The notes under the pieces: model-generated
Database searches by the model: none
Seen by the model: the letters and a program-made list of their open reading frames with translations, nothing else
Told to the model about the DNA's origin: nothing
Translations under genes and position numbers: made by a program
Shown: in pieces, positions 1 to 14,689 of the stretch
How positions within the stretch are numbered: position 1 is the stretch's first letter
Layout of the letters: each line of letters begins with the position of its first letter
Source of the DNA: Desulfuromonas sp.
GTDB lineage: Bacteria > Desulfobacterota > Desulfuromonadia > Desulfuromonadales > Desulfuromonadaceae
NCBI GenBank assembly: GCA_002869685.1
Contig: PKUE01000007.1
Location: 1-64,000 of the forward strand
Direction: 5' to 3'
DNA: 64,000 nt

Positions 1-770
1 CAATGCAGCGCCTGTTCTACCGCCAGAATCAATCCGCAACCATCACGCGCCGGTGCCGTAATATGATTGGCGTCATTGGCAATCCCCCAACCACACAGCT
101 CAATGTCGGTAGCTAATCCGTTGTCTCGCGCACTGTCCTCGTCCATCAGCACCACAGCTGTCGCGGCTTCTCCCAAGGTCAAACCACTGCGCTCAACATC
201 AAAGGGGCGGCTGGGATGACGGGATAACGCCTGCAGGGCCGAGAAACCCGACAGCACAAATTCGCTGACCAGATCGGCACAGACCACAACCACGCAGCGT
301 GCCTGACCGTGAGCAATCAGTGATGCTCCGCGGGCAATCGCCTGAGTCGATGACGCACAGGCAGCATTAATATTCTGGCCGCAATCGGTCAAAGCCAGTC
401 TGTCGGCGACCCAACGGGTCATGGCCAGTGGCAGCGACGCCTGCAGTTGAGCCGATGCCAGTCCCTCTCGCCGGCCCTGTTCCAACAGGTCAATCGCCCC
501 TTTGGTCGTGGCAGTGAACAAACGGGTATCGGCAGGTAACTCAGGCAGTTGGCCGAGCAACTGATCCAGCAACGGATACAACCGCGTCCCTTGACGGTCC
601 GCATCCAGTCCGGGCACACAGGCCGCAACATTGGACAGGTAGTGCGCCGTTTCGAACCGCTCCACAGCGGCGATGGCGGTTTGACCGGCTTTCAAATCAG
701 CCCAGGTGGTCTCAAGAGAGGTTCCCAGCCCGGTGACAGCACAGCCATGGGTGATGACAACATTCTTCAC
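1..770 (-). CDS. beta-ketoacyl-ACP synthase, N-terminal part (aryl-polyene cluster), truncated by window edge
   Basis: Manual minus-strand translation from GTG at 768-770 (VKNVVITHGCAVTGLGTSLETTW...) with KS active-site context INAACASSTQAIARG and PFDVERSGLTLGEAA; GTGA overlap with upstream thioesterase stop; open to position 1. Missing from the ORF track because it runs off the edge. Confidence 0.85.
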   Translation of the reverse strand, partial: MKNVVITHGCAVTGLGTSLETTWADLKAGQTAIAAVERFETAHYLSNVAACVPGLDADRQGTRLYPLLDQLLGQLPELPADTRLFTATTKGAIDLLEQGRREGLASAQLQASLPLAMTRWVADRLALTDCGQNINAACASSTQAIARGASLIAHGQARCVVVVCADLVSEFVLSGFSALQALSRHPSRPFDVERSGLTLGEAATAVVLMDEDSARDNGLATDIELCGWGIANDANHITAPARDGCGLILAVEQALH

Positions 771-1231
771 AACAGGGTTCCTTCTTTCCAACGACGCAAA
801 AAGTCCTGATAAAACGGTGGCGGCACCACCATCAGATTATGATCCGTATCCAGCAGCATCTGCACGCTGTAGCCACGCGTCACCACCTGCTGTTGCTCAT
901 TTCTTAATATGAATTCGTAATTCAGCCGCGCCGCTTCCGTCCAATGCCACACGCCCTCAATGGTAAACCATTCTTCAAAACGCAACGGCTGGACATAATC
1001 GATGTGCAGTTTTTTGATCGGAGCGACCACCCCCTGTGCATAAAAATCCATGTAGCCCAGGCCATAGCAGGCGCCCAGCGCGACACGGGCATCCTCGAAA
1101 TAACTCGGATAGCGGCCATGCCAGACAATTCCCACTGCATCCACTTCTTCAAAACGCACTTGCCTCTTAACCGTCAGTGTTAACGGTGAGGGCGCATCTT
1201 CGACCGCGGGAAACCAGCTTTTTTTTGCCAT
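767..1231 (-). CDS. 4HBT/hot-dog acyl-ACP thioesterase, YbgC/ApeK-like
   Basis: RQVRFEEVDAVGIVWHGRYPSYFEDARVALGACYGLGY is typical of YbgC-type hot-dog thioesterases; context of APE-like cluster. Confidence 0.85.
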   Translation of the reverse strand: MAKKSWFPAVEDAPSPLTLTVKRQVRFEEVDAVGIVWHGRYPSYFEDARVALGACYGLGYMDFYAQGVVAPIKKLHIDYVQPLRFEEWFTIEGVWHWTEAARLNYEFILRNEQQQVVTRGYSVQMLLDTDHNLMVVPPPFYQDFLRRWKEGTLL

Positions 1232-1247: not shown

Positions 1248-1640
1248 TCAGACCGACGTCAACCAGAAGGACGAGGCCAATTCGTCGCCAACATGCAGAG
1301 TGGCATCAATCACTGCTTTGCCGCGTACCATTTTAGCAACGCAGCAGATATCGATACGTTCCGCCGGTCGTAACTGACGGTGAAACTTCGCCCGTTCAAC
1401 CGCTGTCGGCGCGTGCGAAATCAACTGCCCCTGCTCGGCGACAAGCTGTGCCATCAACACCTGGATCACCGCCGGAACAATCGGATAGCCGGGGAAATGC
1501 CCACCAAAGCCGATAAATGACTCAGGCAGAATGAAGGACTGCTCAACCCTCTCACCATCGACGACGACATCACCACAACAGCAGTGATTCAATTCAGAAC
1601 GTAATGGACTGTTCATAAAAGGCGCACCTCTTCCACCCAC
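1248..1640 (-). CDS. FabZ/ApeI-like hot-dog 3-hydroxyacyl-ACP dehydratase
   Basis: ESFIGFGGHFPGYPIVPAVIQVLMAQLVAEQ, FabZ-like GHFPGxPIxP motif. Likely start at the MNSPLRSE methionine. Confidence 0.75.
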   Translation of the reverse strand: MGGRGAPFMNSPLRSELNHCCCGDVVVDGERVEQSFILPESFIGFGGHFPGYPIVPAVIQVLMAQLVAEQGQLISHAPTAVERAKFHRQLRPAERIDICCVAKMVRGKAVIDATLHVGDELASSFWLTSV

Positions 1641-2287
1641 AAGGTCAACCGGTAGTGATCGCCGGTAAGAACAATTTCAGTCGGAGCCCAGACCGTGCCA
1701 AACGCTTTATAGCTGCGATAATCAACCTGCCACGGTGATGACTGGTTATCACATGATGTGCGACGCAAACTCACCGGATCGCCGGCAAAAACAAAAGAAC
1801 ATCCCCGATCCGTCGGACTCGTGAGTCGATACGGTTGTCGGGAATCGCGCTCCTGTAAACAATCTGTCCGTTGCGGTTGTGGGGAGAGAAAAATCCGCCG
1901 CACACTATCCCCGACCACCTCGACAAAACGGGGCTGCTCCTGCAACAGAGGCAGCAGATAGTGAACCGTTTCAGTGTCCGCACTCATCGACAGATCAAAC
2001 AGCTTGACTCCCATACTGTCCATAGCGACCAAGCGGGCCTCGTTAAGGCGCGTGTCAATGCGAATCACCCCTTGCAAGGGAACATCGCGCCAGGGTAAAT
2101 CGAGCACGCCACTGTGACGGCACAGATAACGCTCTCCCGAACTCAGCCAGTGACCGGCGACCAGGTCCGCCACAGACAGATTATCGACAGTGGGCGGTGC
2201 ATCAATGGGCACAGGCTTGGGAGTACATGCAACAATCAGGAACAGCAGCGCATATCCCCCCAGGCCTTTTGCTATTTTCTTCAGCAT
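1613..2287 (-). CDS. DUF3261-like lipoprotein of aryl-polyene clusters
   Basis: N-terminal lipobox-like signal (ALLFLIVACTPKP); position next to the MMPL exporter parallels the DUF3261 lipoprotein of APE clusters. Confidence 0.6.
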   Translation of the reverse strand: MLKKIAKGLGGYALLFLIVACTPKPVPIDAPPTVDNLSVADLVAGHWLSSGERYLCRHSGVLDLPWRDVPLQGVIRIDTRLNEARLVAMDSMGVKLFDLSMSADTETVHYLLPLLQEQPRFVEVVGDSVRRIFLSPQPQRTDCLQERDSRQPYRLTSPTDRGCSFVFAGDPVSLRRTSCDNQSSPWQVDYRSYKAFGTVWAPTEIVLTGDHYRLTLWVEEVRLL

Positions 2288-2300
2288 CTCGCCATCCTTC

Positions 2301-4679
2301 TCAAGAGCGACGTTGCCGCCCTACCCAGACATAGACACTGGGAATCACCAGCAATGCCGTAATCACCGCAGTGCTGATACCAAACAAAACCGTCAAACCA
2401 ATGGATGACATGGCGGGATGACGTGCCAAGGTCAGTGACCCAAAACCAGCCAATGTGGTCAACGCCGAAACCAGCACAGCTTGATCGGTATGCATGCCAC
2501 GACCATAGTGACAACGGTTCAGCATAAAAATGCCATAATCCACGCCCAAACCAACCACCAGAATCGCCGCAATGACATTGAACAGATTAAAGGGCAGACC
2601 GAACCAGCCCATCAAACCAAACATTGCCAGCAAACCACACGCCACAGGCAATAACGCCAGCAGGACATCACTTAAGCGACGATACCAGACCACCAGGACG
2701 ATCACGACCACCAGCAACGCCCGCAGAATAAACCGACTGAAATCGGCTCCCACCTGAGCACTGAGTTGCTGACGAAAACGACCTTGATCCACCACTCGAA
2801 CGCCAGCGATGCTTTCGAGGGAAGTCTGTAGCGCCTCCTGACCGACGGTGTGATGCAGTAATGACAGAATCGCCTTACCATTCGCCAGATCATCTACCAG
2901 CAGTCCGTCAACCACGGTTCCCAACCCGGCATCACGCCAGAAGGATAAATCAAGATGCGCAGGCTCATTCTTCAATTCAAGCAGAAAGGGTTCAAATGCT
3001 GACGCCGAAAAACCCTGTTCCGTTGCAAGACGAAGGAACCGTTCAAGCGCCTCCCGATGCTCAGTCCAGAACTGCTGCCAGCGGTTCACGTTCTCCTGCT
3101 GCACATTGTCGGCCGGAATCAGCGTTGCCAATGAAACCAGGGCATCGCTCTGACCATCTTCAGCAACCAAAGCGGCAACGTGGCTGTTGCGCATCAGTGC
3201 GTCATCCACCGTCGCACCAGTGGCAAAAATCAACGTCTGACTGCGGACATCCCCCCACACCTGTTTCATCAGCTGTTCCCCCTGATCGAGGGACTGGGAC
3301 TGCACACTGAGACTGCGCAGATCACCATCAAACTGCACTTGAGGACAACCGAGAGCACACAGCGCTACCACGACCAACCATAAGAAAGTCCAGCCCGGTT
3401 TATGGTGCGGCTGTTCTTCTCGACTGCGGGCCATGACGGACTGGCTGCGACCACACAAATGGGGCATCACCACCAGAGCCAACAACAGTGCAGCAGCGAT
3501 AGCGGTCATTGAAAACACCGCCAGTTGGCGCTGACCGGGCAAATGCGAGTAGAGCAACACGGCGAACGCCATAAAACTGGTCAGGGCACTGCCGATCAAC
3601 GGTCGGCTCAAACGATTCAGTGTCACCGTTGCCGCACCACCGTGACGCAGGGCAAAAAACACGTGCAGGGTAAAATCGACGGTGATGCCAAGCAATACCG
3701 CACCAAAACCCAGCGTAATTCCGGACAAGGCCGGGAACCACAGTGCCACCATACCGGCAGCAATGCCGAGCACCGACGCGGGCAGCACAAACACCCAGAG
3801 GGCTCGAAGATTGCGCAGCAGCAGAATAAAAATGACCAGGATGGCAACACTGGCGACGGTGAACACCACGCGGATATCCCGCTGCACCGTCTGCGCATTA
3901 GCCACCGTGTAGGCGTGCCCGCTCACGACTGTGGCGCGAATGGACAGCGGCACCGCCGCTTTGACGGCCTGATCAATCCGGTCGAGCAACGCGACACTCC
4001 CGGTCAAATCGGCAATCACCACATCGGTGTCAACCATCAGCAATCGATGACGCCCATCCTGACTGACAAAAGCGGTTTGGGCCAGATCCGCACCAGCAAA
4101 AGGATTCAATTGCCGCAGATGTCCGGCAGCGAAATGCCACAACTGAAGAGGATCAGACTGCAACGTTTGCTTTGTCCACCACCCCTCCGGTGTCATCAAC
4201 TGCGTCCTGATCTCATGCAACCGCCCGAGCAAAGCGTCATCCGTCAAACGCAATTCAATCTGACGGGCATCCTGAGCGGTAAACAGTCGCGGTAACGCCT
4301 GCTGCAAATGGCTCAAAAAGCGGCCATGCCGTTGCAAAGGAGGACCATCGGTCACCCCCAGAACATGGGGTCCTTTCAAAGCGTTGGCCAGAGCCTTTGT
4401 CGTGGCCGTCAACAGCGCCTCATCAGCGGAATCAATCCGCTCCAGATCGATAAAGACCTTTTGAGCAAACGGCGCACGCTGCAACCAGGCAAAATCCTCT
4501 TTGACACGACTGCCCGCCTGATCAGGCAACATGGCATCAAGAGTTTCCTGTGGCTCAACCTGCAAAAACAAGCCGACACTGATCAGGACAAAAATGCCAT
4601 AGAGCAGATACAGCAACCGTCTGCGTAAATGAAAAAAATTGTACAGGCTTGCCAGCATCAGAGTGTTACAACCCCTCAC
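2301..4679 (-). CDS. MMPL/RND-family exporter of aryl-polyene cluster
   Basis: ~790 aa with two sets of TM clusters; GVDYGIFMLNRCHYG and GITVDFTLHVFFALRHG resemble MMPL/RND TM motifs. Start may be at 4658. Confidence 0.85.
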   Translation of the reverse strand: MRGCNTLMLASLYNFFHLRRRLLYLLYGIFVLISVGLFLQVEPQETLDAMLPDQAGSRVKEDFAWLQRAPFAQKVFIDLERIDSADEALLTATTKALANALKGPHVLGVTDGPPLQRHGRFLSHLQQALPRLFTAQDARQIELRLTDDALLGRLHEIRTQLMTPEGWWTKQTLQSDPLQLWHFAAGHLRQLNPFAGADLAQTAFVSQDGRHRLLMVDTDVVIADLTGSVALLDRIDQAVKAAVPLSIRATVVSGHAYTVANAQTVQRDIRVVFTVASVAILVIFILLLRNLRALWVFVLPASVLGIAAGMVALWFPALSGITLGFGAVLLGITVDFTLHVFFALRHGGAATVTLNRLSRPLIGSALTSFMAFAVLLYSHLPGQRQLAVFSMTAIAAALLLALVVMPHLCGRSQSVMARSREEQPHHKPGWTFLWLVVVALCALGCPQVQFDGDLRSLSVQSQSLDQGEQLMKQVWGDVRSQTLIFATGATVDDALMRNSHVAALVAEDGQSDALVSLATLIPADNVQQENVNRWQQFWTEHREALERFLRLATEQGFSASAFEPFLLELKNEPAHLDLSFWRDAGLGTVVDGLLVDDLANGKAILSLLHHTVGQEALQTSLESIAGVRVVDQGRFRQQLSAQVGADFSRFILRALLVVVIVLVVWYRRLSDVLLALLPVACGLLAMFGLMGWFGLPFNLFNVIAAILVVGLGVDYGIFMLNRCHYGRGMHTDQAVLVSALTTLAGFGSLTLARHPAMSSIGLTVLFGISTAVITALLVIPSVYVWVGRQRRS

Positions 4680-5325
4680 GACCTGAGAACAACTGTGTTG
4701 CCAATGGCTGATTCATCTCGGTCTGACTGAAGAGAATCCGGGTATAATCACCGTCGTGTTCATGGATCTCAACTTCGGTGACATAGGCCGCAGAATCAGC
4801 GAACTGAATCAGCAGATGATCAAGAAACGCACCACCCTGCCCCTCGGGAGGGGTCAAACGCAAGCAGATCGGATCAACACCGATCAAGTCGATAGTATAG
4901 TGCGCCTTGAGCCAATCGAGATCAGCCCGCGCCCAGGCAAACAGCTGCTCGGCGATCAGACTCATGGCCGGGTCGTCCTCGAGCCGAAACGGCTCACTGC
5001 CATCGACCCGTTCGTGCCACCGTTCACCACGGTCACCATGAAGGACAAAGCCCGATCCCACCGGGGCTGTGAGCTCCCAGCGCAATTGATCAGGGCGTTG
5101 ATAGTAAAATCGCCCCTGCGAGGTTAATGTCTCTGCAAACATGCTGAGAAATTTTTCCTGAACAAAATCACTGGAGAGGGTGTCAACCTGAGCTGCAGAA
5201 GAGCGAATCTGTTCTGCCATCGACTCGGGCAACGGCTCGGAGGCACACACCGCACCAGCGTTCCATAACAGGCCGGTGATCGCAAAAACGACCCATAACC
5301 GCACCGCAATCAATCGGTAATCCAT
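4666..5325 (-). CDS. LolA-like outer-membrane lipoprotein carrier-related protein
   Basis: Signal peptide; VDTLSSDFVQEKFLSMFAETLTSQGRFYYQRPDQLRWEL is LolA-like. Confidence 0.85.
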   Translation of the reverse strand: MDYRLIAVRLWVVFAITGLLWNAGAVCASEPLPESMAEQIRSSAAQVDTLSSDFVQEKFLSMFAETLTSQGRFYYQRPDQLRWELTAPVGSGFVLHGDRGERWHERVDGSEPFRLEDDPAMSLIAEQLFAWARADLDWLKAHYTIDLIGVDPICLRLTPPEGQGGAFLDHLLIQFADSAAYVTEVEIHEHDGDYTRILFSQTEMNQPLATQLFSGREGL

Positions 5326-5747
5326 AATTTCAGACTCCCTTCAGCGACAATTTCATCACCCCGCCGGATCACACCATCAACCACTGAAAACCCTTCGAGA
5401 TGCCCGGAGGGATCAATATCGATCGTCAATCGGTCACCGACAAACACTTTGGCCAGCATGCTGACTTTACGCGCACCCACCAGATAACCCTGACGAACCG
5501 CAACGCCATCACGAGTGTCTTCGTACCCTTTGATCGTCGCGTAACCCTGTGCAATCAGTTCAATCATAGCCACCGCTTCAAGAGTGCCGTCATCATTGAC
5601 GAACAGATCGTCACGGCGCACCTCGCTGACCACTGTCCCCCGCCCGTCAGAAAAATCAATCAGGGCATCCACCAGCAGCATCGGTGGACGGTGTGGCAAC
5701 AACTGCTGTGCAGCCATCGGCAGAGTCAAGATCGGTGGTGAAGGCAT
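5310..5747 (-). CDS. hot-dog dehydratase (ApeP-like, FabA/FabZ-related)
   Basis: QQLLPHRPPMLLVDALIDF and AVAMIELIAQGYATIKGYE; second dehydratase-like subunit in cluster. Confidence 0.75.
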   Translation of the reverse strand: MPSPPILTLPMAAQQLLPHRPPMLLVDALIDFSDGRGTVVSEVRRDDLFVNDDGTLEAVAMIELIAQGYATIKGYEDTRDGVAVRQGYLVGARKVSMLAKVFVGDRLTIDIDPSGHLEGFSVVDGVIRRGDEIVAEGSLKLWITD

Positions 5748-5748
5748 T

Positions 5749-7341
5749 TTAAACCTCGCCCCAATAGCGGCTTAAATTGTCGAACAGTTGACTGGAAAAC
5801 AGTTTTTTACGCATGGCCACCAGATCATCATGAAATACCCGGCTGTTGTCATAGACCTGAAACCCGTCCTTGAGAAGAGCGTAAATCCGGGCAGTTCCAT
5901 GGCCCAAACGATCGGCGTTACGGAACGACAGTGCCTGCATATCGGCCAGCACTTCCATGGTAAGGATATGTTTGGCGTTACTCACCTGTTTGAACGCTTT
6001 ACGCGCGGCTACAGTTCCCATACTCACCACATCCTGATTCGATGCGTTACAGGAAATGGAATTGGTGCTCACCGGGTTGGCCAGTTGGCGATTCTCAGCC
6101 GTGGTCGATGTCGCCAGATACTGCGACCCCATGAAACCCATGGTAAGGCCGAGAGTACCGGGGATCAGATGCTCAGGCAATCCCTCGTTGAGATTTTTGT
6201 CGAGCAATTTATTGAGACGACGCTCCGACAGATTACACAGGGTTGACAGACTGATGCACAGGGCGTCCATGGCAAAACCGATACTCTGGCCGTGGAAATT
6301 ACCTCCGTGGATAATTTTTTTCTTGCCCGGGATAATGATCGGGTTGTCATTGGACGAGTTGGCCTCCACCTCAACGGTACGGGTGGCGCTTTCAATCATT
6401 TCGGCGGCCGGGGCCAGCACCTGTGGCGTGCAGCGGATGGAATAAACATCCTGCACATTGATGCTGGTTTCAAACACCAGCCCCTCTTGCTGCTGGTTAC
6501 GAATCCGATCATGCATGTTTTCACGTAGAGTGATATTGCCGGAACCGCGGTAGAGGTTGCGAATCGTTTCGGCAATCTCCACCTGGCCGGGATGGGGCTT
6601 GACCCGGTGCAGATCTTCGTCAAACGCATCGTCAATGCCACCAAACAGCTCAATGCCAAAAGCACCGGTCACGCAACTGACACGTAACAGCTTTTTGGCA
6701 CCAAAAATGGCAAAGGCGGCCAGCGCGGTCATGGCACTGGTGCCGTTCATCAGGGCGATACCCTCTTTATAACTCAAACGCATCGGCTCGCGACCAAGCT
6801 CGGCAAACACTTCGGCAGCCGGGCGCAGTTCATCGCGATAGTAGACGTTGCCTTCGCCGATAATCCCCAGGGCCAGATGAGCCAGATGGATCAGGTCACC
6901 GGAGGCGCCAACGCTGCCACATTCGGGGATATACGGGGCAATCCCCTCATTGATCATCCACTGCATGAACTCGAGCAGCTCAATCCGCACGCCACTGTAA
7001 CCTTTGACGAGCGTATTGAGACGCACGAGCATCACGGCGATACCGATATAGGGTTTGAGCGGGTCGCCGAGACCGGCGGCATGGCTACGAATCAGATTGA
7101 CCTGCAAAGTCTCGATCTGATTATCATCAATAATCTTATTGCACATGGGGCCGAACGAGGTATTGACGCCGTAGATGATGTGACGCGCTTGCACAGCCTC
7201 TTCCAGAAACGTGCGGCTTTCACGGCAGCGTTGCAGCGCCTGTTCATCCAGCGCGACGTTTAAATCACCGACACCAACGGCAATGATCTGTTCCACAGTC
7301 AGGTCGTTGCCGGTTAACACAACCAATTTTTGTTCTCCCAT
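5749..7341 (-). CDS. MIO-type aromatic amino acid ammonia lyase (HAL/TAL family)
   Basis: Contains GSVGASGDLIHLAHLAL (ASG gives MIO), YGVNTSFGPM, NGTSAMTAL, GGNFHGQSIG, QDVVSMGTVAARKA. Confidence 0.95.
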   Translation of the reverse strand: MGEQKLVVLTGNDLTVEQIIAVGVGDLNVALDEQALQRCRESRTFLEEAVQARHIIYGVNTSFGPMCNKIIDDNQIETLQVNLIRSHAAGLGDPLKPYIGIAVMLVRLNTLVKGYSGVRIELLEFMQWMINEGIAPYIPECGSVGASGDLIHLAHLALGIIGEGNVYYRDELRPAAEVFAELGREPMRLSYKEGIALMNGTSAMTALAAFAIFGAKKLLRVSCVTGAFGIELFGGIDDAFDEDLHRVKPHPGQVEIAETIRNLYRGSGNITLRENMHDRIRNQQQEGLVFETSINVQDVYSIRCTPQVLAPAAEMIESATRTVEVEANSSNDNPIIIPGKKKIIHGGNFHGQSIGFAMDALCISLSTLCNLSERRLNKLLDKNLNEGLPEHLIPGTLGLTMGFMGSQYLATSTTAENRQLANPVSTNSISCNASNQDVVSMGTVAARKAFKQVSNAKHILTMEVLADMQALSFRNADRLGHGTARIYALLKDGFQVYDNSRVFHDDLVAMRKKLFSSQLFDNLSRYWGEV

Positions 7342-7393
7342 TTTTCCCTCGTAATTTCAGATAAGAATCGTGTCCCAACAGTTCATAAACACA

Positions 7394-7423
7394 GTGAAAC
7401 ATGTGAGATGTTCACTTCACATG
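7394..7423. promoter_or_regulatory. candidate operator: overlapping inverted repeats upstream of the ammonia lyase gene
   Basis: GTGAAACAT-GTGAG-ATGTTCAC (imperfect) and perfect CATGTGA-N10-TCACATG at 7400-7423, in the only long intergenic gap of the cluster. Confidence 0.35.
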
Positions 7424-7625
7424 CCATAACAATAAATTTCTTAGACAACCTCATCCGCTGACGTCATCTGCTACGCCAGTGACGAGGAGGACCCCGTACA
7501 GAGCTGCCTGCTCAACTTTATATCAACCATCAATGGCTAAGTGGATGAAACGCACAATTCGTTGACCTCAAGGGCAACAAATCGAATCCGTGAAATAAAC
7601 GGGAAAACGATTCATCGCAGGTAGA

Positions 7626-8924
7626 TCAAGAAGTCCGATAATCAAAAAACGTCACCGGCTTACGCTTGTCTTCCTGCAGTGTCTGACTCCGCACCGCATC
7701 AACATCCTGAATTACCACCTCAGGTTTAACGCGGATGCGCGCAGCCAGCAGTTCTTCCACGTGATGGGCCGTGAGATCTGGACAGCGGCTGCCCACGACG
7801 ACCCGAATCTGATCGGACAACGCATAATCGTCGCGCACTTCAATATAAAACGCCTGCACTTCGGCAAGTTCCTGCAACACGGCAAAAATTGCCGGTGGAT
7901 ACACCGTTGTACCGCGATATTTGAGCATCTGATTCTTGCGACCCAACACTGGCCCGACCCGCCAACTGTTGCGCCCACATTCACAAGGGTCCGTGTAGAG
8001 TGTTGCCACATCACCGGTTTTAAACCGTAATAACGGCATACCCGTCACCTGAAGTGGGGTGGCAACAACTTCACCGACCTCGCCGGGCGCTACCCGCTGC
8101 CCCTGCTCGTTGACAATCTCGACCAGCATCAACTCAGGCGGCAGGTGGCCCCCACAGCCGTAACTGCAATCAACAAAGGTTGCCGCCATTTCCGTGCTGG
8201 CATAGGTGCCATGAACCTCGGCCTGCCACTTCTCTTTCAGTCGTTCACCCAAGACAGACAGATTCAAGGACTGATCAAGGACGGGTTCACCGATACACAC
8301 CAGCCGTTTCACGCCGCACTGACAGGGATCAATCCCTTTCTTGTGTAAGATTTCAGCCAGGGCCAGAAACAGGGTCGGCACGCCGACCAGCGCGCTGGGG
8401 CGAAAGCGTTCGATCAACTGCGCCACCACAGCCACAGAACTGGAGCCACCACGGATCACTGTCGCGCCGATCTTTTTCAGGCCGAGAAAGTAGGCCATCC
8501 CGGCCATAAAGCAGCGATCGATAGCTGCGGCAATCAGGACCCGGTCATCGGCGGTCAGTCCCGCGGTACTAAACGCCAGGTATTCGTTAAATGCCAAGCG
8601 CTCCAAATCATCACGACTCTGCATAAACGCCACCGGCAAGCCGGTGGTTCCCGAGGTGAGACAAATATCCGCAATCTGCCGTTCCTCAATACAGAGGAAT
8701 TCGTCGCCCCACTGTTCAAGGTCGGCTTTGGTCGTGAATGGCAACGCCGTCAGATCGTCATAACAACGCACGTCGTGCAGGTCGAGACCGTGTTCGCGAG
8801 CCATCCGCTGATAAAATATGGAATGCTCGGCCAGGTAAGCCATGTGCTGTTTTAACAGCAGTTGCTGTTGCTCGCGGATCACGCCCGGCGGTGCAAACGC
8901 CAACTGGTCAGAACAGCTCAACAC
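7626..8924 (-). CDS. phenylacetate-CoA ligase (PaaK)-like adenylate-forming enzyme
   Basis: ICLTSGTTGLPVAFMQSRDD, CIGEPVL, GTYASTEMA, LLRFKTGDVATLYTDPCECGR, PaaK-like layout. Confidence 0.85.
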   Translation of the reverse strand: MLSCSDQLAFAPPGVIREQQQLLLKQHMAYLAEHSIFYQRMAREHGLDLHDVRCYDDLTALPFTTKADLEQWGDEFLCIEERQIADICLTSGTTGLPVAFMQSRDDLERLAFNEYLAFSTAGLTADDRVLIAAAIDRCFMAGMAYFLGLKKIGATVIRGGSSSVAVVAQLIERFRPSALVGVPTLFLALAEILHKKGIDPCQCGVKRLVCIGEPVLDQSLNLSVLGERLKEKWQAEVHGTYASTEMAATFVDCSYGCGGHLPPELMLVEIVNEQGQRVAPGEVGEVVATPLQVTGMPLLRFKTGDVATLYTDPCECGRNSWRVGPVLGRKNQMLKYRGTTVYPPAIFAVLQELAEVQAFYIEVRDDYALSDQIRVVVGSRCPDLTAHHVEELLAARIRVKPEVVIQDVDAVRSQTLQEDKRKPVTFFDYRTS

Positions 8925-9709
8925 GACGACACCATTTCGGCGGCTTCGGCAGGAATGTCCGTCATCTCTTTCAGCGCTTCGACCATCTGCGACTTGACTT
9001 TCTTCTTCAACGCCAGATGGCCCCCTTCGTGTTGGTAGTCATCAACAGCTACCGGCGGCAGGATGCGCAGCTGAACCCGGCAGGGACGTAAACTTTTACG
9101 CCCCGGCGGCAGCAAAATATCGGTGCCGGTAATGCACAGGGGCACCACAGGACATTGAGCGGCTACGGCCAATTGAAAGGCGCCGGAATAAAAACGCTGA
9201 ATCTGACCGTCACGACTGCGATGCCCTTCTGGAAAAAACAACACCGACCCGCCGTGATTGAGCACCTCGGTGCCACGGGCGGTCGTCTCCTGCCAGCTCA
9301 GATCTTCCACTTCCAGATAGTTGGCCAAACGCATGAACAGCCGATACCAGAACATTTTGAACGGCCAGGAACGTACGGCAAAGGTTACATCGCTGTGCGG
9401 CAGTCCTGCCATGAAATAGGTATCGAAAAACGACAGGTGGTTGATGACAAACACGCAGCGTTCAGGGAGCTGATCCGGCGACAAACCCTCACGGCGAAAC
9501 GACACAAACGGAGAAATCAACACCAGCCAGCCGCGTCCATACATCCAGATAATGTGGCGAACAGCACGATCCACCGGCCACTGATGCCGCCAGCGCAGAA
9601 AAACGATCTGCAACGGGCTCAAAATCACCCCGATCACCGTCCATAACACCAACAGGCTGTACACCCAGATATTCATGGCGATGACATGTAACAACGAATA
9701 AACAGTCAT
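8918..9709 (-). CDS. PlsC-like 1-acyl-glycerol-3-phosphate acyltransferase
   Basis: VINHLSFFDTYF (HX4D) and FFPEGHRSRDGQIQRFYSGAF. Confidence 0.85.
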   Translation of the reverse strand: MTVYSLLHVIAMNIWVYSLLVLWTVIGVILSPLQIVFLRWRHQWPVDRAVRHIIWMYGRGWLVLISPFVSFRREGLSPDQLPERCVFVINHLSFFDTYFMAGLPHSDVTFAVRSWPFKMFWYRLFMRLANYLEVEDLSWQETTARGTEVLNHGGSVLFFPEGHRSRDGQIQRFYSGAFQLAVAAQCPVVPLCITGTDILLPPGRKSLRPCRVQLRILPPVAVDDYQHEGGHLALKKKVKSQMVEALKEMTDIPAEAAEMVSSC

Positions 9710-9717
9710 GGATAAAA

Positions 9718-9972
9718 TCAGGATTCAGCAGCAAGTTTCTTGGCAACAAAAGCGTGAATATCGCCCAGAGTCCGGATCTCCTTCACGTCGGCTTCTTCGC
9801 GAATCTTGAAGTTAAAAGCCCCTTCAAGAACGATGACCATGTCAACCGTATCCAGACTGTCAAGCCCGAGGTCTTCATACAGGGAAACATCCGGTGTCAT
9901 TTCATCCAGATCGAGTTCAAATTCTTCCGCCAGGGCCGTATTGACCGTGGTGATGATTTCTTGTTCAGTCAT
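9718..9972 (-). CDS. acyl carrier protein (aryl-polyene cluster)
   Basis: EDLGLDSLDTVDMVIVLEG, phosphopantetheine DSLD site. Confidence 0.92.
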   Translation of the reverse strand: MTEQEIITTVNTALAEEFELDLDEMTPDVSLYEDLGLDSLDTVDMVIVLEGAFNFKIREEADVKEIRTLGDIHAFVAKKLAAES

Positions 9973-11200
9973 GGTTATATCTCCTTAAGACCAGAGAGGT
10001 ATTCACCCCGCCAAGTGCAAAGTTATTTTTTAAAGCAACACTTAAATCAACATCAGACAACTGCTTGATATAGTTCAGTTCTGCACAATCGTTATCAACG
10101 TGATCGAGATGCAAAGTCGGCACCAGTTTTCCCTGGTTGAGCATATCGATAGTCGCGATGGTTTCCAGAGCACCACTGGCGGCCATGGTGTGCCCCAGAT
10201 GCCCTTTTAGACTGCTCACCGCAACTGACGGCTCAAACACTTCGGCAATCGCCTGACTTTCGGCGATATCGCCCTGCTGCGTTGCCGTAGCATGGGCATT
10301 GACATAATCCACCTGTGCCGCATCAATGCCTGCCGACTCAAGAGCCTGACGGATGCACAAAGCCATCACCCGGGCATCGGGATTGGCAATACTGCCCGGA
10401 TCGGAGACGGTGGCAAAACCAATCACTTCGCCAAGAATCTTGGCCCCGCGTTGCAAAGCCGAATCCAGAGATTCAAGAACCACAATGCCACTACCTTCCC
10501 CGCACACCATGCCATCACGGTCTGCCGCGAACGGACGCGGTGTCAGCTCCGCCCGATCATTGTAGGCCGTCGATGCGGCATGCATGACATCAAAGGTGGC
10601 ACAAGTCAGCGGATGCAGTTCATCAGCACCGCCGCACAACATTATCTGCTGGTGACCCTGGGCAATCATCTCATAACCGTAGCCGATGGCCTGACTTCCC
10701 GTAGCGCAGGCTGCAGAGGGAGCAAGCAGCCGACCGGCGATATTGAAAGTCTGAGCAATGTTGGAGGCACAGGTATGGTTCATCATCTGGAAGAACAGCG
10801 TTGACTTCATCCGTTCCAAACTGTGATCCGTGAAATAATCCTCAAAAAAAGCCTCGGTCACTTCGGTACTGCCGACGGTGGACCCAACGGCGACACCCAG
10901 GCCACCGGAGGCACACATTGTCTCATCAATCCCCGCCTGCTGCATAGCCTCACTCGCCGCCAGAGTGGCGTAGACTGACATCTTCGACATGGATCGCCGA
11001 TGCTTGCGGGCAATCTGCTTCGGATCAATGCCCTGCACCCGACTGGCAACCAGACTGCGCAGTCCCTGGACCTGACGAAGCGCATCATAATAGCTGACAG
11101 CACTGCGGCCTTCGTACAATCCGCTAAGCAGATCAGCAACCGTACCGCCAAACGGTGAAACGGCTCCCATTCCGGTGATTACGACTCTGTTCATTGCCAC
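9965..11200 (-). CDS. beta-ketoacyl-ACP synthase II-like (KS) of aryl-polyene cluster
   Basis: APSAACATGSQAIGYG active Cys, VNAHATATQQGD and SLKGHLGHTMAASGA His motifs. Confidence 0.92.
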   Translation of the reverse strand: MAMNRVVITGMGAVSPFGGTVADLLSGLYEGRSAVSYYDALRQVQGLRSLVASRVQGIDPKQIARKHRRSMSKMSVYATLAASEAMQQAGIDETMCASGGLGVAVGSTVGSTEVTEAFFEDYFTDHSLERMKSTLFFQMMNHTCASNIAQTFNIAGRLLAPSAACATGSQAIGYGYEMIAQGHQQIMLCGGADELHPLTCATFDVMHAASTAYNDRAELTPRPFAADRDGMVCGEGSGIVVLESLDSALQRGAKILGEVIGFATVSDPGSIANPDARVMALCIRQALESAGIDAAQVDYVNAHATATQQGDIAESQAIAEVFEPSVAVSSLKGHLGHTMAASGALETIATIDMLNQGKLVPTLHLDHVDNDCAELNYIKQLSDVDLSVALKNNFALGGVNTSLVLRRYNHD

Positions 11201-12690
11201 TGTCTCAACTCCTCTGCAACACGTTGATGCCCCAACAGGGTGCCACAGGTATAGAATGCCCCAATCATGGCGCCCATCAGCCCCGGTGCAGCCAAAGCCT
11301 GCCCCGACAGATATAGTCCCCGTACCCGCGTAGCGACCTGTAACGGGTATCGTGCCAACTGGTGACTGACGCCATACATTGCGCCCTGCGGATAGTGCAG
11401 ATAATCACGCAGCGTCAGTGGTGTCGCTAAAAAAGGTTGTTGCAACGCTTGAGCGACCTCCGGTGCCGCCTGTTCAATCCGCTCAAGCATCTGCCCGCGA
11501 CGCTCGTGCTTAAAGCGCAGATACTCTTCAGGGCGCTGGCCACGGCGGGTCGCCTGCCAGGGCTCGTAACAACGGTAATCCTCTGGCATAATACCGATAA
11601 TGCCGCAGCGCTGGGCCACACCGTCGTCCGTACTGAGCTCTAACCCGGCCGAAGACAGGTATAACGGCCGCTGCGCCATTGACGCGGAAAACAACTCGGT
11701 CCCAAGGTGCAAATCAGCCAGGTATAAATTGCGGTCAGCCAGAGATTCAACAGGCCGCGCACTTTGTCCAAACAAGATCAAGGCGGACTGCGTTTCCTGC
11801 AGAGCCGTCAACCGACGTCGATACACCGGGCGAAAACACTTCTCGTCAAGCCAGTCCAGCAACAGACGCGGATCAGCGGCATGAATAACCTGCGCCGCGA
11901 CAAGTTCCTGCCCTGAAGACAGGGTAACGCCAGTAATGTTATTGTCAGGATCGACCGACATGGCGGTAACCCTGGAGCCACAGTACAGATCAACATTCGC
12001 CTGTTGCAAACTGGCCGCGAAGGATTGACTTAATTGTCTTCCGCCGCCACGAATGCCATACACCGAACGGCAATAAGGGCCGACCACTGCCGCATGGAGG
12101 CGCAAAGGGATCTGATCCGGCGGGGTACCATGCAGCAAACAGTGCATACACAACACCGCCTGCAGACGTCGATCCTGTGTTAACTCAGCGACAAAAGCCT
12201 GAAGACTGATATCCTGGCTGTTGGCAAACAATGCATCTTCGCCAAAGGTCTTCTCTTTGTTGAGATACGGCAGAGAATCACAGATCGACAGCACCGTCTG
12301 CTGAAAACGATTAATCGCCGCAGCTTCACGGGGAAATGCCGCCAGGAGTGAATCACGCCAAGACTGCTCTCCGTAGCTGAATTCAACCACGTCAGACGTC
12401 GACTGATCGACAATACGATCAAACCCCTGCGCTCTTAACGGATAAAGTTCCATCCCCTGATTAAGGCCGAGGAAACGGAAAAAACGGTCCAATATCTCGC
12501 CGGGGCCAAGACCTCCAGCATAATGAAATCCAGTATCATGGTGGACACCATGGCGAACAAATCCATGTAGCAAAGGGGTCACATGGGCTTCTCGCTCAAC
12601 AACAGCGACACGGCAACCGAAATGAGACAACACCAGGGCACAGGTCGCACCACTGATGCCGCCGCCAATGATCACCGCATCATACTTCAA
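11191..12690 (-). CDS. FAD-dependent oxidoreductase, phytoene desaturase/CRTISO/retinol saturase-like
   Basis: N-terminal YDAVIIGGGISGATCALVLSHFGCRVAVVEREAHV dinucleotide-binding fold; HHDTGFHYAGGLGPGEILDRFFRFLGL; RGGGRQLSQSFAASLQQANVDLYCGSRV; GLYLSGQALAAPGLMGAMIGA. Confidence 0.8.
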   Translation of the reverse strand: MKYDAVIIGGGISGATCALVLSHFGCRVAVVEREAHVTPLLHGFVRHGVHHDTGFHYAGGLGPGEILDRFFRFLGLNQGMELYPLRAQGFDRIVDQSTSDVVEFSYGEQSWRDSLLAAFPREAAAINRFQQTVLSICDSLPYLNKEKTFGEDALFANSQDISLQAFVAELTQDRRLQAVLCMHCLLHGTPPDQIPLRLHAAVVGPYCRSVYGIRGGGRQLSQSFAASLQQANVDLYCGSRVTAMSVDPDNNITGVTLSSGQELVAAQVIHAADPRLLLDWLDEKCFRPVYRRRLTALQETQSALILFGQSARPVESLADRNLYLADLHLGTELFSASMAQRPLYLSSAGLELSTDDGVAQRCGIIGIMPEDYRCYEPWQATRRGQRPEEYLRFKHERRGQMLERIEQAAPEVAQALQQPFLATPLTLRDYLHYPQGAMYGVSHQLARYPLQVATRVRGLYLSGQALAAPGLMGAMIGAFYTCGTLLGHQRVAEELRQWQ

Positions 12691-13922
12691 AGGCTCTCCC
12701 CGAAATTCAGGACCAGACAGGCGTTCGTGCCTCCGAAACCGGCAGAATTACATAAGACGGTTTTCGGCGCCTGAGGCAGTGTCTGCGTAACGATGTGCAA
12801 GCCTCTGGCGGCGTCATCCGGTTCGGTAAAATTGATATTGGCGGCAATGAAACCATCGCGGGCCATCAGAGTGCAATACACCACCTGCGAAGCTCCGGAC
12901 ATCCATAATTCATGGCCGGTCATCGATTTCAATGACGAAACCAGTGGACCGTCATCACCAAAGACCGCCTGAATATTTGCCGCCTCAGCAGCGTCACCGG
13001 CCGGTGTCGAAGTCGCATGAGCACACAGGTAGTCGATCTGCTCCGGTTGCACGTTGGCCCGCTGCAGAGCCTGCAGCATAGCGCGTTGCAACCCGCCACG
13101 GCTGGGAACCGAAAGATTTTCACCATCGGACGAAAAACCGTAGGACAAAACTTCACCAAGGATGGTTGCACCGCGCTGCAACGCTTCCTCATAATTCTCC
13201 AGCACCACCGCCGCAGCACCACCACTGGGCACTAGGCCGTCACGGTCAGCAGAGAACGGACGACAGGCAGCCGTCGGCTCGTTTTCGCGCACGGAAAAAG
13301 CACCAAGACCGTCAAAACTGCACATGGATTGCCAATTGATCTCCTGAGCGCCACCACAAATCACCCGTTTCTGTCGCCCCAGAGCAATCAAGTCTGCGGC
13401 TTGACCAATGGCATGACCACCACTGGAACAGGCGGAACTCAACGACCAGCAGGCGCCTTTGGTCCCCAGCAAAGTATTGAGATTCATGGTCACGCATGAG
13501 GTCATGGAACGGAAGATCTGACCACTGCCGATCGATTTTGTTTCCTGACGCTCGCGCAGCAGATCAACCTGCTCAATCGCCGCCAGACAACTCGAATCAC
13601 AGCCAAAAATCAAACCGGTATCCTCGCTGCGCACCAGCGACTCGTCCAACGCAGCCATTTCCAGCGCCTGACGGCTGGCCGCATAGGCCTGCACGGCAAA
13701 GTCTGGCATGCTCTTACGCTCTTTGCGCGACAAAACCTTTTTAGTGTCAAAACCATCAATACGTCCGGTCAGCGCACTGCGAAAACCGAGCGCCTTGCGC
13801 TCCTCGTCCACAACAATACCGGAACGACCAAGACGTAAAGCCTCGCTGACTGTATCGGCATCACAGCCAAGACACGAAATTATCCCGACACCGGTTATGG
13901 CTACTCGATTCAACGTCGTCAT
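12687..13922 (-). CDS. beta-ketoacyl-ACP synthase (second KS, aryl-polyene cluster)
   Basis: CWSLSSACSSGGHAIGQA active Cys, CAHATSTPAGDAAE and SLKSMTGHELWMSGA. Confidence 0.9.
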   Translation of the reverse strand: MTTLNRVAITGVGIISCLGCDADTVSEALRLGRSGIVVDEERKALGFRSALTGRIDGFDTKKVLSRKERKSMPDFAVQAYAASRQALEMAALDESLVRSEDTGLIFGCDSSCLAAIEQVDLLRERQETKSIGSGQIFRSMTSCVTMNLNTLLGTKGACWSLSSACSSGGHAIGQAADLIALGRQKRVICGGAQEINWQSMCSFDGLGAFSVRENEPTAACRPFSADRDGLVPSGGAAAVVLENYEEALQRGATILGEVLSYGFSSDGENLSVPSRGGLQRAMLQALQRANVQPEQIDYLCAHATSTPAGDAAEAANIQAVFGDDGPLVSSLKSMTGHELWMSGASQVVYCTLMARDGFIAANINFTEPDDAARGLHIVTQTLPQAPKTVLCNSAGFGGTNACLVLNFGESL

Positions 13923-13951: not shown

Positions 13952-14689
13952 TTACGGCATGCAGGCTCCACCATTAACAGAGAATACCTGCCCGGTGATG
14001 TACTGCGCTTTGTCCGAGCAGAGAAAATCAACCATATCAGCGACTTCCTGCGCCGTACCAATCCGGCCAAGGGGAATCATCGGCAGAATCCGCTCCAGAG
14101 GCAACTCATCGGTCATTTCGGTTTCAATGAATCCGGGAGCAACCGCATTGACCAGGATCTTGCGTTTGGCCACTTCCATGGCCAGTGAGCGGGTAGCTCC
14201 GATCATACCGGCTTTCGCTGCGGAATAATTCGTCTGACCGCCGACCCCGGTCTGCCCCGAGGTGGAAACGATATTGACAACACGACCACACCGTTTGCGT
14301 AACATCAGGGGAATGACCTGGCGGGTCACATTGAAAAAACCACCCAGATGAACTGAAATCACATCGTTCCATTCCTTCTGACTCATCAAAGCCAGCAGAG
14401 TGTCTTTGGCAAAACCGGCGTTATTGATGACCGCAAAAGGAACATCATTTTCCAGATGTGGTTTTAGCGCCTCCTCACAGGCGGCGAAATCAGCAACATC
14501 GAACGGCAACAACAGGCATGTAGCACCGGCCTGTTCTACCAGCGCTCTGACCTGCTCGGCTGCCTGATGATCGGAACGGTAATTCAACCAGATATCAAAA
14601 CCGGATTGAGCCAGGGTGGTGGCGATAGCCGCACCGATCCCCTTACTCCCCCCGGTGATTAAAGCAATACGTCGTGGCGCCTCAGGCAT
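13952..14689 (-). CDS. 3-oxoacyl-ACP reductase (SDR, FabG-like; aryl-polyene cluster)
   Basis: ALITGGSKGIGAAIA, NNAGFAKD, NYSAAKAGMIGATRSLAMEV. Confidence 0.92.
   Translation of the reverse strand: MPEAPRRIALITGGSKGIGAAIATTLAQSGFDIWLNYRSDHQAAEQVRALVEQAGATCLLLPFDVADFAACEEALKPHLENDVPFAVINNAGFAKDTLLALMSQKEWNDVISVHLGGFFNVTRQVIPLMLRKRCGRVVNIVSTSGQTGVGGQTNYSAAKAGMIGATRSLAMEVAKRKILVNAVAPGFIETEMTDELPLERILPMIPLGRIGTAQEVADMVDFLCSDKAQYITGQVFSVNGGACMP

Follow-up and report, generated by a model that had tools for sequence, protein, structure and literature searches.

Few bacterial pigments are as widespread as the aryl polyenes and flexirubins, and the published pathway scheme assigns roles only to starter supply, chain building, joining of the resorcinol and export. 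The flexirubin of Chitinophaga pinensis has the formula C43H54O4 and yields a fragment of m/z 343, and the genes of that organism include, in order, flxU, flxV (described as a 'reductase'), flxW (ligase-like) and flxY (PMC3992019); from this published order we read flxU as an exporter gene. The aryl polyene (APE) cluster of E. coli CFT073 shares ketosynthases (KS), an acyl carrier protein (ACP), an acyltransferase, a LolA protein, an MMPL protein, a thioesterase (TE), a dehydratase (DH) and a ketoreductase (KR) with the operon described here. It differs in that its cluster genes include neither an FAD enzyme nor an aromatic ammonia-lyase, both of which are encoded in the window (the whole 64,000-nucleotide stretch of Desulfuromonas sp. 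DNA that was analysed), in agreement with the preliminary description, which had placed the FAD gene outside the core E. coli APE set.

Judged by its gene content, the window operon (Table 1) appears to be a flexirubin-type cluster, marked as such by the aromatic ammonia-lyase and the FlxY-like ligase. The best NCBIfam matches of the ligase, KR and LolA proteins are FlxY, FlxB and LolA2, all below the curated cut-offs, and the FlxA model is the third-best match of the ammonia-lyase, likewise below its cut-off. By inspection, the lyase carries NQD at a site that has glutamate in histidine lyases; NQD is the tyrosine/phenylalanine lyase pattern described for FlxA (PMC3992019). Neither DarB nor methyltransferase genes were found among the cluster genes read in the window. 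Since the cluster appears to be of the flexirubin type, the E. coli APE cluster is the wrong comparator for the FAD gene and flexirubin clusters are the right one; in one of these, the FAD protein is already annotated as an 'NAD(P)/FAD-dependent oxidoreductase'.

Table 1. Genes of the polyene operon in the window, listed in operon order.
Feature	Coordinates	Strand	Evidence or remark
KR, FlxB/FabG-like	13952..14689	-	FlxB model 298.6 bits, cut-off 340
KSa ketosynthase	12687..13922	-	Cys-His-His by inspection; 4-bp overlap with FAD gene start
FAD enzyme, CrtI/CRTISO superfamily, 499 aa	11191..12690	-	TTG start
KSb ketosynthase	9965..11200	-	Cys-His-His by inspection; ATG at 11194 is the likely start
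Acyl carrier protein	9718..9972	-	Family profile matches
Lysophospholipid-type acyltransferase	8918..9709	-	Family profile matches
Acyl-CoA ligase, FlxY-like	7626..8924	-	Top NCBIfam match FlxY, 485 bits (cut-off 520)
Aromatic amino acid ammonia-lyase, FlxA-like	5749..7341	-	NQD motif by inspection
Dehydratase, ApeP/FabZ-like	5310..5747	-	Scores under cut-offs
LolA family protein	4666..5325	-	Top NCBIfam match flexirubin LolA2, 92 bits (cut-off 125)
MMPL/RND-type exporter	2301..4679	-	Family profile match
Lipoprotein-like protein	1613..2287	-	No family match; same place as E. coli DUF3261 protein (inferred from gene order)
Second dehydratase, FabZ-like	1248..1640	-	Weak match
Thioesterase, YbgC/MenI-like	767..1231	-	Family profile match
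Third ketosynthase, interrupted by contig end	3..791	-	Sequence reading; KS at same place in relatives

The FAD gene is intact. Its 499 codons are open on the minus strand, a strand that the preliminary description had not given while correctly reporting a 499-residue FAD protein with motifs that were all found again, and the opposite strand of the same interval is rich in stop codons. Translation would begin at a TTG codon, with GGGGAG a few bases 5' of it, and the overlap of 4 bp with the upstream KS gene (TTGA) is as previously reported. The 10-bp overlap reported with the downstream KS gene holds only with a GTG start of KSb. A shorter overlap is more likely, since starting KSb at the ATG two codons further on, in the same frame, would leave 4 bp (ATGA) shared. 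Homologues with open frames were detected in 31 of 58 sampled genomes of the window's order (E <= 1e-20), and therefore the reading frame is not a chance one.

Conserved synteny supports the earlier view that the gene is an integral member of the operon. Ammonia-lyase was found in 29 of the 58 genomes and together with the FAD gene in 28, such that the FAD gene is present in 28 of 29 lyase-bearing genomes versus 3 of 29 genomes lacking the lyase (Fisher 8e-12, a descriptive value as the genomes are related). The order KSa-FAD-KSb was found at 27 of the 29 loci that belong to the window's order and at 53 of the best 80 loci from GTDB, where most of the relatives are Desulfuromonadales or belong to other deltaproteobacterial lineages. 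The GTDB genome scan gave no match with the single protein and succeeded with an alignment (A1) as the query. The survey of co-occurrence proposed in the preliminary description reveals conserved linkage to polyene synthase genes in several phyla. Identity of the FAD protein across the order is mostly 37-40%, versus about 55-75% for the ketosynthases, so that in the own-order comparison it is one of the least conserved synthase-core proteins. An apparent KS-FAD fusion (an 880-aa frame in G032) was rejected because it consists of two genes in different frames.

Several loci depart from the window's arrangement. At one (L041 in G016, 6165-7313), a radical SAM/SPASM protein occupies the usual place of the ligase and ammonia-lyase and the FAD gene is retained; ammonia-lyase was absent from this genome at the threshold used. 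Eight loci from Geobacter, Syntrophus and other deltaproteobacterial MAGs (L062, L064, L065, L068, L070, L091, L092 and L110) have KSa-FAD-KSb with no lyase or ligase nearby, and a different starter is possible there. The same FAD clade is represented in gut Bacteroidales and relatives (L106, L111, L116, L122-L124, L127, L130 and L132), where its member lies in a compact cluster of KS, ACP, DH, TE, MMPL and FAD genes, often with KR and LolA genes too.

Among 396 sampled Bacteroidota genomes, 35 encode FlxY above its cut-off, and the FAD protein was found in 31 of these 35, with the gene on FlxY's contig within about 15 kb in 29. In a smaller sample of FlxY-negative Bacteroidota, one of 138 genomes (G194) had a protein above threshold, which was rejected as a family member since it falls in the generic clade. 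At most of the Bacteroidota loci inspected, the genes run MMPL-acyltransferase, FAD, C45 acyltransferase, FlxY, and one of these loci also encodes DarB and DarH above cut-off. From this gene order, the FAD gene is by its position alone probably FlxV of C. pinensis, which counting from flxA (Cpin_1853) would place at Cpin_1874. As a cluster member, the gene is therefore ordinary and widespread rather than unusual, and its distribution suggests that it is a conserved, dedicated flavoenzyme gene of flexirubin-type aryl polyene clusters. The novelty claimed for it is weakened accordingly: geometry editing remains plausible, and a 'new tailoring step' is unestablished for what is a normal member of flexirubin clusters.

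A few FlxY clusters lack the gene, for example that of G178 (L183, 3075-9821), in which the MMPL-acyltransferase, C45 and FlxY genes have no FAD gene between them, offering a natural comparison for pigment chemistry. Because E. coli-type clusters and these few FlxY clusters lack it, the FAD gene is not essential for every polyene. Flavobacterium-like flexirubin clusters (L205-L206 in G235 and L207 in G347) encode an additional FAD protein that is closer to CRTISO (180 bits with TIGR02730). Its gene is flanked by an LpxL-type acyltransferase gene and by a flavodoxin-like gene adjoining DarB; such a paralogue lies 21-25 kb from the first FAD gene in five genomes. At another locus (L208 in G456, 6410-9439), a tandem pair of superfamily FAD genes lies between the MMPL-acyltransferase and ligase genes.

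With regard to its family, the window protein matches only general FAD families in Pfam (Amino_oxidase/NAD_binding_8), and its NCBIfam matches are CrtD (the top match, 91 bits versus a cut-off of 550), crtI_fam (TIGR02734, 61.8 bits versus 238.1), and carotenoid isomerase CRTISO (TIGR02730, 47.7 bits versus 586.9). Since all of these scores are far under the cut-offs, no named family claims the protein, which by its profile and fold matches belongs to the CrtI/CRTISO superfamily outside every curated family. Retinol saturase belongs to the same superfamily, and the DTG-x-HY motif of the window protein presumably resembles that of RetSat. The AlphaFold2 model (pLDDT 90, pTM 0.91) gave as first PDB matches with Foldseek the gamma-carotene desaturase 4rep (TM 0.76) and then CrtI 4dgk (TM 0.54-0.65). 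A phmmer search of PDB with the single FAD protein returned no match, and a profile search matched CrtI and 4rep. The superfamily call of the preliminary description is thus right.

Rab GDI structures, also found among the Foldseek matches, raise a different prospect, namely that the protein is a non-catalytic carrier or chaperone that passes the polyene from the ketosynthases to the products of the export genes, with a fold in common with the Rab GDI lipid carriers. Its low conservation relative to the ketosynthases and its position beside an exporter fusion in Bacteroidota are in keeping with such a role, but G9, G11 and G14 of the GxGxxG motif and the FAD glutamate E32 are invariant in the family, as are many other residues, and we rate a carrier function as the most improbable of the readings considered.

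In a tree built by quick search with SH-aLRT support and no bootstrap, all polyene-cluster FAD proteins form a single clade (SH-aLRT 98) that adjoins a generic group and contains no CrtI, CrtD or CRTISO-type reference. The CRTISO references are proteins of the phylum Bacteroidota that score just under the CRTISO cut-off, which we take to be Chlorobia CrtH. Structure prediction and phylogeny, both suggested previously, hence confirm the superfamily fold and separate the clade from CrtI and CRTISO alike. At F119, Y390, K394 and Y439-G440 the cluster proteins match the CRTISO references but differ from CrtI, and P120 is common to both reference sets; H56 was dropped as a diagnostic residue because a histidine is also there in plant PDS. 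The earlier term 'CRTISO-like' therefore stands with respect to signature residues, and membership of CRTISO or CrtI is contradicted by the tree and the family cut-offs.

The same alignment bears on whether the enzyme could be a dehydrogenase in the manner of CrtI, adding a double bond or oxidizing the starter or ring with transfer of electrons to quinone. In CrtI, D149, R148 and R152 are catalytic residues proposed from docking, D149 being the candidate for the dehydrogenation base (PMC3382138). The segment containing this aspartate, which is D in 12 of 12 CrtI sequences, shows as a gap in every one of the 52 cluster proteins, in a region where the alignment is uncertain. Although carotene desaturases (4rep and 4dgk) are the top structural matches and CrtD is the top NCBIfam match, the loss of this proposed acid/base segment, the distance to every desaturase cut-off, and the supply of the unsaturated starter by the ammonia-lyase and of the remaining double bonds by KS/KR/DH all weigh against dehydrogenation, which we consider quite improbable.

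Further guidance comes from the composition of flexirubin. By arithmetic, coumarate, seven KS/KR/DH rounds and one methyl group give the methylaryl-octaene acid C24H24O3 (acylium 343.17), and this acid plus a resorcinol C19H32O2 minus water gives C43H54O4, a formula silent on isomer content. Since KS/KR/DH chemistry explains the formula fully, no net redox step is visible on the polyene, an argument that holds only if C. pinensis has the FAD gene (as FlxV). The net redox editing previously suggested for the enzyme is thus disfavored by the published formula, and, as no extra redox step is needed, editing of double-bond geometry is favored over saturation or desaturation.

A saturase or reductase resembling retinol saturase would serve tailoring or turnover by reducing a single double bond, either in the polyene or in a chain that was misprimed or damaged. 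Consistent with this, Pfam and NCBIfam profiles identified no enoyl reductase among the annotated cluster genes and the FAD-binding motif is intact, but flexirubin has the formula of a fully unsaturated octaene (PMC3992019) and nothing found in the FAD protein points to NAD(P)H binding; we consider saturation unlikely. Less likely again, and improbable to a slightly greater degree than dehydrogenation, is some other flavin-dependent change to the cluster product, by hydroxylation, dehydroxylation or ring oxidation, that leaves the polyene double bonds untouched: the superfamily includes ketolases and a dehydroxylase (NCBIfam matches CrtO and HpnE), but the window protein reaches just 31 bits with HpnE, and all oxygen in the flexirubin formula is accounted for by the starter, acid and resorcinol.

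The reading we favor, to which we would give a little under an even chance, is a CRTISO-like, redox-neutral editing of cis/trans geometry in the polyene, and such editing is our best guess at function from these comparisons. The substrate would be the growing ACP-bound or the released polyene; reduced FAD would stabilize a transient cation, with an acid/base group adding and removing a proton on the chain, and the all-trans chain would be passed on to the ketosynthases on either side and to the export machinery. The window's relatives belong to sulfur- and iron-reducer lineages, which we take to be anaerobes. Even CrtI is an isomerase when oxygen is absent and its FAD is reduced (PMC3382138). 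In addition, an extra signal appeared after purification, for which the authors offered isomerization as a possible explanation (PMC3992019), a hint that isomerization occurs in these pigments.

The FAD gene thus bears on how flexirubin-type pigments may keep or set double-bond geometry. More speculatively, and in our estimation doubtful, the clade could be a separate branch of the carotenoid superfamily devoted solely to polyketide polyenes, proofreading geometry on the ACP-bound chain between the two ketosynthases. If true, geometry proofreading within a type II polyketide synthase would be a step missing from the published APE and flexirubin schemes, and a carotenoid enzyme fold would have been recruited to polyketide polyenes. 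No paper turned up in literature searches that looked for phytoene-dehydrogenase-like enzymes within type II PKS polyene biosynthesis. In a cinnamoyl polyketide pathway, cis-trans isomerization is reported to be carried out by a glutathione-dependent enzyme, taken to be unrelated to the FAD protein.

Among known systems, CRTISO/CrtH (TIGR02730) shares with the window protein its superfamily, its length and the residues F119, Y390, K394 and Y439-G440, and differs in its low similarity, in the separate clade of the window protein and in the location of the window gene in a polyketide rather than a carotenoid cluster. CrtI (4dgk; TIGR02734) has the same fold but retains the acid/base segment that the window protein lacks (62 bits versus 238), and the gamma-carotene desaturase (4rep)/CrtD group, although the best solved fold match, is set apart by its cut-off of 550 and by the window protein's own clade. 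The Persicobacter protein WP_338399410.1 falls in the same clade as the window protein, to which it is 29% identical in an alignment covering 99% of the length, and its gene likewise adjoins exporter, acyltransferase and FlxY ligase genes; in Bacteroidota, however, the FAD gene mostly lies between the MMPL-acyltransferase and C45 acyltransferase genes, whereas that of the window lies between two ketosynthase genes.
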